Below, piece after piece: positions 2,508 through 57,240 of a stretch of 64,000 bases of DNA. The stretch comes from Chroococcidiopsis thermalis PCC 7203. GTDB taxonomy: Bacteria; Cyanobacteriota; Cyanobacteriia; Cyanobacteriales; Chroococcidiopsidaceae. The position numbers and the translations under genes are program-made. Each line of letters starts with the position of its first letter. Within the stretch, counting starts at the first letter, position 1. The DNA is taken from the NCBI RefSeq assembly GCF_000317125.1, contig NC_019695.1, positions 3,398,336 through 3,462,335 of the forward strand, given 5' to 3'. The notes beneath the pieces are model-generated. The model saw only the letters and a list, made by a program, of their open reading frames with translations. It made no database searches and was not told where the DNA came from.

Positions 2508-3237
2508 GACAAATGACTCCTCAATGGCGAATGGTATTCTCTACGGTGTTAGTGTTGGTCCAGGCGATCCAGAACTGATAACGCTCAAAGGGTTGCGATC
2601 GCTGCAACAAGCTCCCGTAGTTGCTTTTCCTAGAGGAATTCAAGACAAACCAGGCATTGCCCAACAAATAATTGCTCCGTGGCTGCGATCGGATCAACAG
2701 CAGCTACCCTTAGATTTTCCCTACGTGCAAGACATTGAAGTTTTAACAAAAGCATGGCAGCTAGCCGCCAAGCAAGTTTGGGAATATTTACAGAAAGGTC
2801 AAGATGTGGCTTTTGCCTGTGAAGGGGATATTAGTTTCTACAGTACGTTTACCTATTTAGCACAGACGCTGCAACAAATGTATCCCGCAGCCGTCATCAA
2901 CTACGTTCCTGGTGTCTGCTCGCCTATGGCAGCAGCATCGGCGTTAGGGCTGCCCTTAACTGTCCGCCAAGAGCGTTTAGTCGTGCTACCAGCGATTTAT
3001 AACGTCAACGAACTAGAATCTATTTTAGACTGGGCAGAAGTCGTAGTATTGATGAAAGTAAGTTCTGTATACGAACAAGTATGGCAAGTCTTGCAGCGCA
3101 AATCCCTACTGCAACACAGTTGGATAGTAGAACGAGCTACATTACCAAATATGGTGATATATAAAGATTTAAGCGATCGCCCGCACCTACAATTACCCTA
3201 CTTTTCGTTACTCGTCGTCCAAGTCAGTCGTCAGTGA
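2503..3237 (+). CDS. cobI: Precorrin-2 C20-methyltransferase
   Basis: CobI/CbiL transfers a methyl group from S-adenosylmethionine to C20 of precorrin-2 (or the cobalt form) in cobalamin synthesis in the cytoplasm. The N-terminal signature GVSVGPGDPELITLKG is the SAM-binding loop of tetrapyrrole methylases. Further family blocks follow: the acidic CEGDISFYSTF segment and the PGVCSPMAAASALGLPL region typical of C20 enzymes. The length of 244 residues fits. The first ATG (2503) lies in a heptamer array; an in-frame ATG at 2524 just before the first beta strand could be the real start. The stop codon overlaps another heptamer array. No cobalamin riboswitch was evident upstream, and no other cob gene is adjacent. 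Confidence 0.92.
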   Translation: MTTNDSSMANGILYGVSVGPGDPELITLKGLRSLQQAPVVAFPRGIQDKPGIAQQIIAPWLRSDQQQLPLDFPYVQDIEVLTKAWQLAAKQVWEYLQKGQDVAFACEGDISFYSTFTYLAQTLQQMYPAAVINYVPGVCSPMAAASALGLPLTVRQERLVVLPAIYNVNELESILDWAEVVVLMKVSSVYEQVWQVLQRKSLLQHSWIVERATLPNMVIYKDLSDRPHLQLPYFSLLVVQVSRQ

Positions 3238-3276
3238 CTAGCGACTAGTCACTAGTCACTAGTCACTAGTCGCTAG
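3232..3276. repeat. Heptanucleotide array (GTCACTA)n at the cobI 3' end
   Basis: Six imperfect copies of a 7-mer (CAGTGACTAGCGACTAGTCACTA and so on). The cobI stop codon TGA at 3235-3237 lies in the first unit. Confidence 0.8.
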
Positions 3277-3282
3277 AATTAT

Positions 3283-3400
3283 TTGTCCCCCTTGTCCCCC
3301 TTGTCCCCCTTGTCCCCCTTGTCCCCCTTCGCCCCCTAATCCCCCTTGTCCCCCTTGTCCCCCTTGTCCCCCTAATCCCCCTTGTCCCCCTTGTCTCCCC
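3283..3400. repeat. Nine-base tandem array (GTCCCCCTT)n upstream of the tonB-like gene
   Basis: About 13 copies of the 9-mer GTCCCCCTT, a few varied to CGCCCCCTT or AATCCCCCTT. The complementary strand reads G5-ACAA-G5 repeatedly, a sequence able to form G-quadruplexes. It ends about 17 bp before the ATG of the TonB-like gene, so it occupies the place where promoter and ribosome binding site would be expected. The same unit recurs at 8190-8217, 35608-35637, 44765-44812, 49472-49558, 54706-54723, 57241-57290 and inside recJ. Confidence 0.9.
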
Positions 3401-3416
3401 TACTCCCTAATTACTG

Positions 3417-8057: not shown

Positions 8058-8294
8058 AATGTAGTGAGGAGCGAGGGGAATTTTGGATTGGTAATGGGTT
8101 GGTAGTTGATGGTTGATGGTTGTTGGTTGATGGTTGTTGGTTGTTGGTTCTTGCTCCCTCCGCTCTCTTCTCTCCCTCAGCTCTCTTCTCCCTTGTCTCC
8201 CTTGTCTCCCTTGTCCCAATTTTGAATTTTGAATGCGCTAATTTTGAATTCTCTTTGTCCCCCCCCTGCTCCCTTTACTATCTTTCTAATTCAA
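8058..8294. repeat. Repeat-filled gap between two response regulator genes
   Basis: The 237 bp contain TTGATGGTTG heptamers (8085-8150), CTCCCTC/AGCTCTCTTCTC runs and three copies of the 9-mer CCTTGTCTC/CCTTGTCCC around 8190-8217. I see no gene or clear promoter. Confidence 0.7.
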
Positions 8295-35408: not shown

Positions 35409-35640
35409 TTGTCATTTGTCATTCGTCATTTGTCATTGGTTGGAGGTGATTCCAACTCATGAATCGCGACTTGTGAGTTAGGCGTTACCAACTACCTCTA
35501 GATAGATATTCTGACTTGATTTGGTAAAAGAAGGGAAACAGTTGTTAATAGGGAGTGACTAGTGGCTAGTGACTGGTGACTAGAATTGCTCCTGAAGTTC
35601 CTCTGCTTCCTTGTCCCCCTTGTCTTCCTTGTCCCGACTT

Positions 35641-54732: not shown

Positions 54733-57240
54733 TCACTCCTCACTCCTCACTCCTAATTGAGCGGCATGGGCTTGAATGGTAGAGAGAGGAACCGTAGAAA
54801 AATACTGGCGTTGGAATTGTTCTTCTCGGACAGCTTGGGCAAATTTGTCTATTGCTTGCATGTAAGCGGCATCGGTAGCATAGAGATTTGTAGATGCGGC
54901 AACGTGCCACGGTACTTCTTGAGAAATATGAAAATAGCGGTCTTGAAAGCTAACATAAAAGCCCAAGTAGGAAAGAGCAGTAAATCCTAATCCTAAAAGG
55001 CGATCGCTAATTCCAAGCTTTTGACTGAGTTGCACGCGAGTCACCGTTTGTCCGGTACGGCAAAGGTATTTAGCAATTCCGACTAACTGTTGCCAGACTT
55101 GTGGTGGTGAGACTGGTTCGGGTGTAGTCCATGCCAAAACTAAAGACTTATTTTCAAACTGCGATCGCCGCATCCAGACACGTAACTCGTCCCAACAAGT
55201 GGGACAGGTACGCACGACAAGCGAGGATGGATCGCCTGTGAATGTATCGTCAACTGGGGCGATCGCCATACCACGGCAGTCGAGAATTTGAGGAGCGAGG
55301 GGCGTTAGCGAAGCGGGACGAAGTCCGGAGTGAGGAGTGAGAGATAAAGAGTCGGAAGTACGGACGGCAATGAGGCGGACTTCGTAACGTTGTTTATTTT
55401 TGAACGAGTTGTAGTCGAGTTCTACAATACAGTCACAGCGTCCAGTCGGGATCTCGTCTTTATAATGTCCCCACCACACACCAGGAAAACTAGTTTTAGT
55501 CGAGTCATCCCGCAAATTAAAATCTGTTTTGATATATTGCACTTTGTTTCCCCGCCAATCTTGTTGGTTGCGATGCCAAGTGTTTTCAAACCAGCAATTT
55601 TGAATCAGCAGTTTTGGCACGGGATTACCCATACCACAGGGTTCGAGTAGTTTCAGTTCTAAAAACAAATCTCTCCCTAAATCGGCTACTGTCACCACCA
55701 GATCTGCTTGTACGGACGGTACAGCGATCGCGCTTCCCTGCTGTCGGAGTTTTTGGTTAATCGCTGCGGTAAATAGCGGTATATTCTCAACGGGTATGCT
55801 TAATCCAGCCGCAAAAGGATGTCCGCCAAACCTATGCAGTAAATGCGCTTGATCTTTCACTAACTGGTACAAATCGATATTACCGACAGACCGAGCTGAA
55901 CCGCGAGCAAGTGCGGGAGTTGGGAGAGTGGCTAGTGGCTGGTGACTAGTGGCTAGAATTGCTCCCTCAGCTTCCTCAGCTCTCTTATCCCCCTTGTCTC
56001 CCTTGTCTACCTTGTCCTCCTTGTCCCTTTGTTCCCCTTCCGTACTCAACAAAATCGTAGGACGACCCGTTTCTTGAGCAATTTGTCCGGCGACGAGTCC
56101 TAAGACTCCAGGCGACCATTGGGAATCTACGAGAACGATAACGCTAGTGGTGGAGAGATCGATTTCTGACTTGAGTTTTTGGGCAACTTGCTGGGAAACT
56201 TCTTTTTGTAAAGACTTGCGACGAGTGTTTGCCAATTCGGTTTCTTGGGCAAGGCGCTCGACTAAGTTGAGATCGTCGCTGGTCAGTAATTGAACGCAAA
56301 AGCTTGCGTCACCTTGAATTCGGCTCACAGCGTTGATGCGGGGACCCAAGCCGAAAGAAATATCTGTGGGGCGATCGCCACTTTTCTGACACATTTCTAA
56401 TAATCGCCCTACTCCTGGTCGCCGTCGCTGTTGAACTGGTTGTTTATAATCCTGTTGCATCCGTTCAATACCCAATTGAGCTAAATAACGGCAATCTCCA
56501 CTCAGTTGTACTAAATCGGAAATTAACCCAATAGCGACGAGATCGAGTAAATCCTCTAATGGTTGTCGCGGTACATTTGGTAAAAATTGATATAAGGCTT
56601 CGACAAGTTTGTAGGCAACTGCAACCCCAGATAGATGAAATAATTGATGCTCTGAAGGAAAGTAACGCGGATTAATTATTGCAGTCACAGGTGGACGTTC
56701 TGCGGGTAAAGTGTGGTGATCGGTGACAATCGCATCAACGCCCAAAGATTTCGCATAGAGAATTTCTGCAACATTCGTGCTACCAGTGTCGCAAGTCACG
56801 ATTAACTTACAGTTATCGCGGGCAAGCAGATCGATTCCAGGGCAGTTCAACCCGTGCGACTCGGTAAGGCGGTTGGGGATGTAATAGGAAAGTTGGGTAT
56901 GTTGACAGAAAAATTGTCCCAATCCATCCCATAAAACCGCTGTAGAAGTGATACCATCAGCATCAAAATCACCCCAAATTGCCACTTTTTCTTGGCGATC
57001 GCGAGCAATTTGCAATCTTTCTACTGCTAAGTGCATTTCTTGCCCAAATTCAAATGGGCTAGCAGGTTGATAGCAGCGAGGATTGAGATATCCAGGTAAC
57101 TCCTCTCGCGCTTGAACTCCCCTTTGCCATAACAGTTGTGCCGCAAATCCTGCGCTAGGGGCATATTCCCTAACTGCTTGCACGAACCACTCTGGGGGCT
57201 GTTCTGTTGGGACGATCCATTGTGGCTGGGAGACGTTCAT
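54733..57240 (-). CDS. recJ: Single-stranded-DNA exonuclease RecJ with repeat-derived insertions
   Basis: RecJ digests single-stranded DNA 5' to 3' in recombination and repair. DHH-type motifs: WGDFDADGITST (D91, D93, D95), VTCDTG (D151), VTDHH (D174, H175, H176). The DHHA1 domain has ARGSARSVGNIDLYQLVKD and HLLHRFGGHPFAAGLS. Length is 835, longer than usual. Residues about 403-442 (DKEDKVDKGDKGDK and following) are encoded by 9-bp and 7-bp repeats that are otherwise intergenic; residues about 631-649 are another repeat patch. Both are in frame and lie between conserved blocks, so the enzyme may still work. A 9-bp array is also immediately before its ATG. Confidence 0.95.
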   Translation of the reverse strand: MNVSQPQWIVPTEQPPEWFVQAVREYAPSAGFAAQLLWQRGVQAREELPGYLNPRCYQPASPFEFGQEMHLAVERLQIARDRQEKVAIWGDFDADGITSTAVLWDGLGQFFCQHTQLSYYIPNRLTESHGLNCPGIDLLARDNCKLIVTCDTGSTNVAEILYAKSLGVDAIVTDHHTLPAERPPVTAIINPRYFPSEHQLFHLSGVAVAYKLVEALYQFLPNVPRQPLEDLLDLVAIGLISDLVQLSGDCRYLAQLGIERMQQDYKQPVQQRRRPGVGRLLEMCQKSGDRPTDISFGLGPRINAVSRIQGDASFCVQLLTSDDLNLVERLAQETELANTRRKSLQKEVSQQVAQKLKSEIDLSTTSVIVLVDSQWSPGVLGLVAGQIAQETGRPTILLSTEGEQRDKEDKVDKGDKGDKRAEEAEGAILATSHQPLATLPTPALARGSARSVGNIDLYQLVKDQAHLLHRFGGHPFAAGLSIPVENIPLFTAAINQKLRQQGSAIAVPSVQADLVVTVADLGRDLFLELKLLEPCGMGNPVPKLLIQNCWFENTWHRNQQDWRGNKVQYIKTDFNLRDDSTKTSFPGVWWGHYKDEIPTGRCDCIVELDYNSFKNKQRYEVRLIAVRTSDSLSLTPHSGLRPASLTPLAPQILDCRGMAIAPVDDTFTGDPSSLVVRTCPTCWDELRVWMRRSQFENKSLVLAWTTPEPVSPPQVWQQLVGIAKYLCRTGQTVTRVQLSQKLGISDRLLGLGFTALSYLGFYVSFQDRYFHISQEVPWHVAASTNLYATDAAYMQAIDKFAQAVREEQFQRQYFSTVPLSTIQAHAAQLGVRSEE
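55291..55345. repeat. Repeat patch inside recJ, second site
   Basis: GAGGAGCGAGG and GGAGTGAGGAGTGAGAG heptamer-like units flank GCGTTAGCGAAGCGGGACG. The stretch is read as SLTPHSGLRPASLTPLAP in the recJ frame. Confidence 0.75.
55915..56034. repeat. 120-bp compound repeat inserted in the recJ reading frame
   Basis: Plus-strand reading shows GGCTAGTGGCTGGTGACTAG heptamers, CTCCCTCAGCTTCCTCAGC, and then five 9-mers of the CCTTGTCTC/CCTTGTCCT family. This is the same succession that fills intergenic gaps such as 8085-8217. Its size is 40 codons, preserving frame. Confidence 0.88.

Follow-up and report, generated by a model that had tools for sequence, protein, structure and literature searches.

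The window analysed here, a stretch of 64,000 nucleotides from Chroococcidiopsis thermalis PCC 7203 (NC_019695.1, positions 3,398,336 to 3,462,335), is part of a 6,315,792-bp contig in a genome of 6.69 Mb and contains a recJ gene with a block of short tandem repeats inside its reading frame. The gene product possesses the DHH, DHHA1 and OB domains that make up the RecJ set (Table 1), and Foldseek returns solved RecJ structures as the top matches to its model, with a poor superposition of the model as a whole (TMq 0.48 at best). The block translates as EQRDKEDKVDKGDKGDKRAEEAEGAILATSHQPLATLPTP, which corresponds exactly to residues 403–442. In-frame repeats had been noted at this position in a preliminary description of the window, and both the coordinates of the open reading frame (ORF) and the period-7 and period-9 arrays found by TRF bear this out. 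The block had been read as 7-mers followed by 9-mers; both are present, but they belong to one composite in which, on the + strand, approximately four AGTGGCT-type 7-mers are followed by CTAGAATTG, two CTCCCTCAGC-type 9-mers and finally the CCTTGTC-type 9-mers.

The repetitive character of the block is local. CCTTGTC occurs on the + strand of recJ at 55992, 56001, 56010 and 56019 only (the other strand was not counted separately), and the self-match of the loop (0.42 at 7 bases and 0.57 at 9) is equalled by no window of the same length elsewhere in the gene. Working from the unit sequences, the CCTTGTC-type 9-mer is stop-free in all six reading frames, and no frame of either strand of a perfect AGTGGCT array of more than 22 bases is free of TAG. 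The recJ 7-mer unit that is due to yield an in-frame TAG carries CAG instead, a variant present at other genomic sites too. It had also been argued that 7-mers cannot change in copy number without a frameshift and that the total of 120 bp must have been selected for frame. The first point holds for single units, but three units amount to 21 bp and 7-mer arrays are found in the loops of many relatives; as to the second, a multiple of three shows only that the gene is intact.

The composite is dispersed through the host genome. Two tandem CCTTGTCYC units give 513 + 527 matches, and CTAGAATTG followed at 0–30 bases by CCTTGTC gives 42 matches, which reduce to 25 distinct sites when overlapping matches are merged by hand. 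The related pattern with CTCCCTCAGCTC in place of CTAGAATTG gives 21, and the reversed control of each of the three patterns gives none. All 19 of the distinct junction sites inspected, namely those within the 30 loci fetched, have AGTGGCT/TGGTGAC-type heptamers directly before CTAGAATTG. By eye the heptamer start of these 19 copies is fairly constant and their far end is ragged, and neither terminal inverted repeats nor the target-site duplication of a miniature inverted-repeat transposable element was seen in them. The presence of like units in intergenic gaps of the window had been described previously and is borne out by TRF arrays of the same kinds at 3233–3401 and 8097–8217. The junction pattern was then sought in 60 genomes, comprising the own genome (G000) and 59 relatives that include the other two genomes of the genus (G001 and G002). 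It is matched 42 times in G000 and 46 and 19 times in its two congeners (control 0), and 1–2 times in six of the other 57 genomes, where the control level is one match in each of four. Because the junction recurs in number only in the three genus genomes, the block represents one of the copies of a dispersed composite, genus-specific within the 60-genome sample.

Table 1. Positions in the window of recJ, its repeat block and related arrays.
Feature	Position	Strand	Details
recJ	54733..57240	-	ORF of 835 aa; Pfam DHH 85-238, DHHA1 365-499, OB 513-623 (RecJ_OB)
In-frame repeat block	55915..56034	-	120 bp, residues 403-442; turn between strands 395-400 and 444-450
Period-7 array	55927..55956		AGTGGCT on +; TRF
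Junction CTAGAATTG of the dispersed composite repeat	55953..55961	+	25 distinct genome sites with CCTTGTC at most 30 bases on
Two CTCCCTCAGC/CTTCCTCAGC 9-mers	55962..55982	+	Read from the sequence
Period-9 array	55980..56036		CCTTGTC-type on +; coding strand GACAAGG-type, Asp-Lys-Gly/Glu/Val; TRF
Period-7 array spanning the recJ stop codon	54722..54754		TRF
Second length-variable RecJ region	55231..55332	-	Residues 637-670; alignment; low model confidence 627-649 and 661-670
Intergenic composite of the same make-up	3226..3401		7-mers, CTAGAATT, CCTTGTCCC 9-mers
Intergenic composite	8097..8217		GGTTGAT 7-mers, CTCCCTCAGCTC, TCTCCCTTG 9-mers
Intergenic composite sharing the CTAGAATTG junction	35554..35635		TRF and junction match

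Within the protein the block fills a β-hairpin turn of the DHHA1 domain. In alignments the turn between the strand ending in PTILLS and the K/RGS motif has approximately 8 residues in 8y30 (Staphylococcus), 2 in 5f54, which we take to be the Deinococcus RecJ, and 46 in the window. An AlphaFold2 model was built from 31 sequences (the window and 30 of 80 named loci) and is useful locally only, with a mean predicted local distance difference test score (pLDDT) of 68 and a predicted TM score of 0.49. In this model residues 402–440 have pLDDT values below 50 and no secondary structure between the two flanking strands. The very low confidence and absence of secondary structure support the earlier suggestion that repeat DNA can enter a gene in frame and become a low-complexity linker. 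When 104 cyanobacterial RecJs are aligned, this turn is the most length-variable segment of the protein, with a standard deviation of 14.5 aa compared with 5.1 aa for the next, and in 109 cyanobacterial loci it ranges from 8 to 96 aa with a median of 28. At the position of residues 403–442 relatives have other repeats, variable text of another kind, or a short turn such as EGQTAFA. The same charged segment encoded by unrelated codons, the mark of an old protein feature according to the preliminary description, is absent from the 109 loops read. The turn with its variable length predates this insert and is reused across the order.

A second RecJ paralog is encoded in the three genus genomes, and its turn is short, identical in each and free of repeats. 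This unchanged turn rules out an insert that would be found in any RecJ, and because of the second paralog the view of recJ as an essential-looking gene is weak. Two recJ genes are described for many cyanobacteria in the accessible text of PMC5101192 and PMC10653904. The frame of the turn is open in 103 of 104 distinct loops. A TAG is found inside the recJ repeat loop of L024 (the same record as L054), a metagenome-assembled genome (MAG) of the same family, which could reflect a misassembly, a pseudogene or an allele in the OFF state. In L060, from Nostoc sp. T09, an in-frame stop lies near the RecJ C-terminus (position 800 of the 810 residues read). The second variable region of RecJ contains, in many Nostocales, heptamer-like SALST/STQHSAL text together with other dispersed-looking peptides.

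The turnover of the loop is evident within the genus. Outside the loop the aligned recJ genes of the three genomes are 95.5–96.3% identical. The G000 loop consists of GACAAGG 9-mers and then AGCCACT 7-mers, that of G001 of GACAAGG 9-mers and then CCGAATT 7-mers, and that of G002 of GGAGTCG 7-mers followed by the same AGCCACT tail as G000. For the wider comparison, the RecJ search matched all 60 genomes (the own genome included) and 30 RecJ loci were fetched, best first; the wider sample consists of 80 of 211, and its seed peptide DKEDKVDK, one of six, favours loops with such text. The loop pattern did not pick up L079, and with five identical loops removed the 110 loci give 104 loops, of which 95 are long enough for the periodicity test. 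Many rows are closely related Nostoc, and the counts are of sequences and not of events. Exact 7- or 9-mer arrays of at least two copies are present in 40 of the 104 distinct loops, against 35 of 3230 windows of the same length elsewhere in the same genes; this exact-match scan misses the window's own imperfect arrays, and the 35 control matches may include the second variable region. Periodicity at the 1% level of same-gene windows is reached, among the 95 loops of at least 36 nt, by 31 at 7 bases and by 24 at 9 bases. A 7-base periodicity is not expected from protein selection. On a tree built without the loop, the presence of arrays requires at least 20 changes compared with a shuffled mean of 32.5, a phylogenetic signal. 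The repeat family among the 41 carriers (the window added by hand) requires at least 24, compared with a shuffled mean of 26.9 and minimum of 23, and thus has almost no phylogenetic signal. These change counts come from one quick tree and from family classes assigned by hand.

The content of the loop was further compared with the repeats of its host. Four families were counted as three tandem units each, with both strands summed, in nine genomes, given here in the order G000, G001, G002 and the hosts of L102, L074, L072, L087, L051 and L076. GGGAGTR, carried in the loops of L087 and L051, gives 28, 70, 96, 124, 180, 0, 379, 481 and 3 (reversed control 0 except for 7 in G001, 7 in G002 and 1 in the L076 host). 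The counts for GGGGAYTG, carried by L072, are 0, 0, 0, 41, 33, 1272, 7, 9 and 95 (control 0–4), and those for GACAAGGRG, carried by G000, G001, L051 and L076, are 423, 39, 27, 0, 2, 0, 4, 234 and 62 (control 0). Finally, GGGAGATGR, carried by L074 and as a variant by L102, gives 0, 0, 0, 47, 122, 5, 16, 9 and 2 (control 0). The top count of each of these four families falls in a genome whose RecJ loop carries that family. The loop therefore tends to follow the families that are abundant in its host, for the four families counted; the loop family of G002, GGGAGTC, lies outside the count.

We consider it very probable that the recJ block is a copy of the genus-specific composite placed in an exposed turn of DHHA1 and retained through tolerance of varied, stop-free text. 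The composite of AGTGGCT-type heptamers, CTAGAATTG and CCTTGTC-type nonamers would have entered the turn by copying, with short stretches in common serving for a template switch or for ectopic recombination. Once in the turn the array would grow by slippage, and the many other genomic copies would rewrite it through the same two processes, which would cause the loop to follow the abundant families of the host. Selection would prune frameshifts, stops and harmful reading frames, and would favour frame and solubility. The insert is expected to have no effect, or a slight one, on RecJ activity, and most inserts are taken as tolerated.

Several observations weigh against this account. The presence of arrays carries phylogenetic signal, and part of it is therefore inherited. 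The agreement between loop and host is also imperfect: G002 has its 27 GACAAGGRG matches without that 9-mer in its loop, the hosts of L102 and L074 each have more than 100 GGGAGTR matches that are not reflected in their loops, the L076 host is richer in GGGGAYTG (95) than in its own loop family (62), and G001 is richer in GGGAGTR (70) than in its own loop 9-mer (39). The mechanism of copying is one that we infer, neither an insertion event nor an enzyme having been observed, and some pieces of the loops may have grown in place by slippage. Finally, the loops have a steady order, with G-rich text first and C-rich text second, that mere tolerance does not predict.

This order is seen both in the loops and between genes. 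Of the 63 loops of at least 60 nt, 50 pass from positive GC skew in their 5′ half to negative skew in their 3′ half, compared with 21% of same-gene windows. Exact arrays on the coding strand are G-rich in 24 of 25 cases in the 5′ half and C-rich in 35 of 35 in the 3′ half, so that 59 of 60 fit. The 9-mers in the 5′ halves of loops are translated as Asp-Lys-Gly/Glu, Gly-Gln-Gly or Thr-Arg-Gly text, and the 9-mer complement in the 3′ half of the L024 loop is read as Leu-Val-Ser. Among 54 intergenic clusters of at least 60 bp in G000, 32 are G-first and 4 C-first (binomial p 2e-6, a value that is too small since the clusters may be copies of one another); in the others the skew is positive in both halves (7), negative in both (8) or zero in one half (3). 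By symmetry either strand shows the same order, which is therefore independent of gene direction.

Some loops are in addition predicted to fold. A fold z-score below −2 is obtained for 22 of 60 loops compared with 9 of 120 flanking windows, and for 17 of the 54 intergenic clusters (no control windows). Long, near-perfect stems are predicted in the loops of L102, L074, L087, L051 and L072. The L051 loop, which is made up of GGGAGTG and GGACAAGGA arrays with inverted C-rich arrays, includes a coding stretch of 225 nt predicted at −132.5 kcal/mol, or −137.9 kcal/mol with slightly more flank. No long stem of the palindromic kind was found in the window's own loop, which lies outside the 25 lowest z-scores of the 60.

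A wider proposal, which we put forward tentatively and with some doubt, is that these repeats may form a cyanobacterial class of protein-coding repeat elements of their own, in which G-rich text precedes C-rich text on either strand and which are often hairpins, copied by hairpin-templated repair into gaps and into surface turns of enzymes, with the RecJ DHHA1 turn as a standing landing site that is refilled with the common repeats of each genome. If this were true, the turn would be a one-locus record of repeat turnover across a whole order. The narrower idea that loops are kept as nucleic-acid hairpins, their inverted halves pairing in DNA or mRNA with the stem as the mobile or selected unit, seems unlikely. 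The folding results and near-perfect stems speak for it, as does the G-first polarity of loops and intergenic clusters, but 38 of the 60 loops do not fall below z −2 and all three genus loops are outside the 25 lowest scores. Furthermore, pairing accounts for the inverted arms and not for G coming first, as pairing alone allows C-first equally.

It is improbable that the segment is an old functional linker of RecJ, charged or of low complexity and engaged in binding a partner or DNA, with its repeat-like appearance being secondary. All 109 loops do have at least 8 residues at the turn, often rich in Gly, Asp and Glu first and in Ser and Pro last, but their length and content differ even among species of one genus, protein constraint gives no reason to expect a 7-base period, and the repeat family is almost independent of the tree among its 41 carriers. 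Asp-Lys-Gly text as an old RecJ feature is ruled out by the loops of relatives and the alignment. We regard as quite improbable an origin of the arrays on the spot, with replication slippage producing them inside a tolerant loop of low complexity and no copying from outside repeats. Slippage clearly shapes the arrays, as unit numbers differ among relatives, but the RecJ block has a non-repetitive junction and an order of parts in common with 24 other sites, and the four counted families peak in genomes that have the family in the loop. For the genus this origin is largely refuted, because slippage alone cannot build 7-mers, CTAGAATTG and 9-mers at 25 sites. Very improbable, lastly, is a contingency switch in which recJ is put out of frame whenever a single 7-mer is added or removed, so that recombination or repair is toggled in a subpopulation. 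The 7-mer arrays inside the gene would permit this and one MAG has a TAG in its loop, but all other distinct loops (one record per species) are stop-free, the 7-mers of the window are few and imperfect, and a second RecJ is present.

The tolerance of inserts invoked for recJ can be set beside other genes of this genome, in which further array text is found. The survey covered 464 kb, made up of twenty evenly spaced 20-kb stretches and the window, with genes called by a simple codon model, and gave 176 array clusters with periods of 7, 9, 14, 18, 21 and 27. Only 17 of these are found 90 bp or more within a predicted coding core, although 63.5% of bases lie that deep; this strong depletion rules out that the repeats invade genes freely. 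Approximately 11 of the 17 are genuine short-repeat text by eye, the rest resembling ordinary protein repeats, helices or short chance runs. Ten of the in-gene ORFs were compared with Pfam, of which one (L131) has no match and nine are named: ketoacyl synthase, HI0933-type flavoprotein, hybrid histidine kinase, AroE, WD40, PEP-utilising enzyme, Mur-ligase type, CheA type and UvrA. Arrays in AroE-, PpsA-, CheA-, UvrA- and HI0933-type genes leave nothing to tie the insert to RecJ as a nuclease of single-stranded DNA, an activity that the preliminary description had pointed out, and rule out that RecJ is special for this reason.

Across 30 genomes the AroE-type gene has a long segment at its site in this genus and G019 only, which are also where the segments of the HI0933-type gene are longest. 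The HI0933-type gene has long, mutually different texts in G000, G001 and G002 and another in G019 (L244); the other 26 sequences mostly have a turn of a few residues, somewhat longer in L262 and L268. The AroE-type gene has a short array in G000 and a longer one common to G001 and G002, with an array at a neighbouring place in G019 (L208) and a short turn in the remaining sequences. In the PpsA-type gene the array region is variable in many relatives. Text with 9-mers followed by 7-mers, the order found in recJ, is seen in the PEP-utilising (L142:18261-20000, −), HI0933-type (L136:888-2291, −) and CheA-type (L146:5802-8903, +) genes, and a short CTCCTCG 7-mer array directly follows the UvrA interaction domain of the UvrA gene (L149:3150-6233, −, residues 288–299).

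The recJ block may be compared with several known kinds of repeat. Short tandemly repeated repetitive (STRR) sequences are 7-mer tandem arrays that, in heterocyst formers, reportedly occur both between genes and in a structured gene; Vioque is said to have found STRR heptamers inside the RNase P RNA gene in 1997. The repeats described here likewise have 7-bp units in many dispersed, mainly intergenic arrays and also lie inside genes. They differ in that these genes encode proteins, and in that the block is part 7-mer and part 9-mer, joined in a composite with a conserved junction. Rickettsia palindromic elements (RPEs) appear, by their description, to be the closest known kind. In the accessible parts of PMC10969869 and PMC2229807, RPEs are reported in frame in conserved genes, between genes and in RNA genes, and a guanylate kinase with an RPE is active with a changed substrate affinity. 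The repeats found here are likewise dispersed, both in intergenic gaps and within the reading frames of conserved enzymes that tolerate them, and the loops of some relatives share the stem-loop structure of RPEs. RPEs, as far as those excerpts describe them, are units of approximately 105–150 bp with terminal inverted repeats, whereas here there are ragged 7- and 9-mer tandem composites, and one turn of one enzyme is reused with different repeat families.

Three other systems share single features. The portion of PMC4692102 available describes G-quadruplex GGGGAYT heptamers of Nostoc/Anabaena 7120, with 68% of 89 arrays intergenic and a notable fraction intragenic, which are under-represented on the coding strand in ORFs and, in Anabaena, form few inverted pairs. 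The L072-type loop unit belongs to this family, but RecJ loops carry these heptamers with the G-rich side on the coding strand in their 5′ half and in inverted orientation in their 3′ half. TAACTGA repeats of Beggiatoaceae and cyanobacteria are, according to excerpts of PMC4679880, similarly sporadic heptamers, translatable in one orientation; the Beggiatoaceae copies described there lie mostly before start codons, and those in ORFs mostly in hypothetical proteins and not in loops of conserved enzymes. The coding palindromes of nematomorph mitochondria are likewise long inverted repeats inside genes, but both arms encode conserved protein, as the accessible text of PMC6649704 has it, whereas the RecJ arms form a variable loop. 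What is new here is that a single turn is reused repeatedly, that some loops fold as coding hairpins, and that the order is G-rich first and C-rich second. Literature searches on RecJ with repeats and on Chroococcidiopsis repeats gave nothing on this insert, most subscription papers lying outside the search.

To our knowledge the spread and role of short repeats in cyanobacteria are an open question. The recJ block of C. thermalis provides a clear case, in a free-living organism, of intergenic repeats turned into protein in conserved enzymes, and at the same site close relatives have a short turn or a different filling. The order rule, which 59 of the 60 exact arrays follow, is a pattern that any proposed mechanism of copying must account for. 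As one conserved gene can be compared over dozens of species, with the reading frame as a filter, the spread of these repeats becomes testable.

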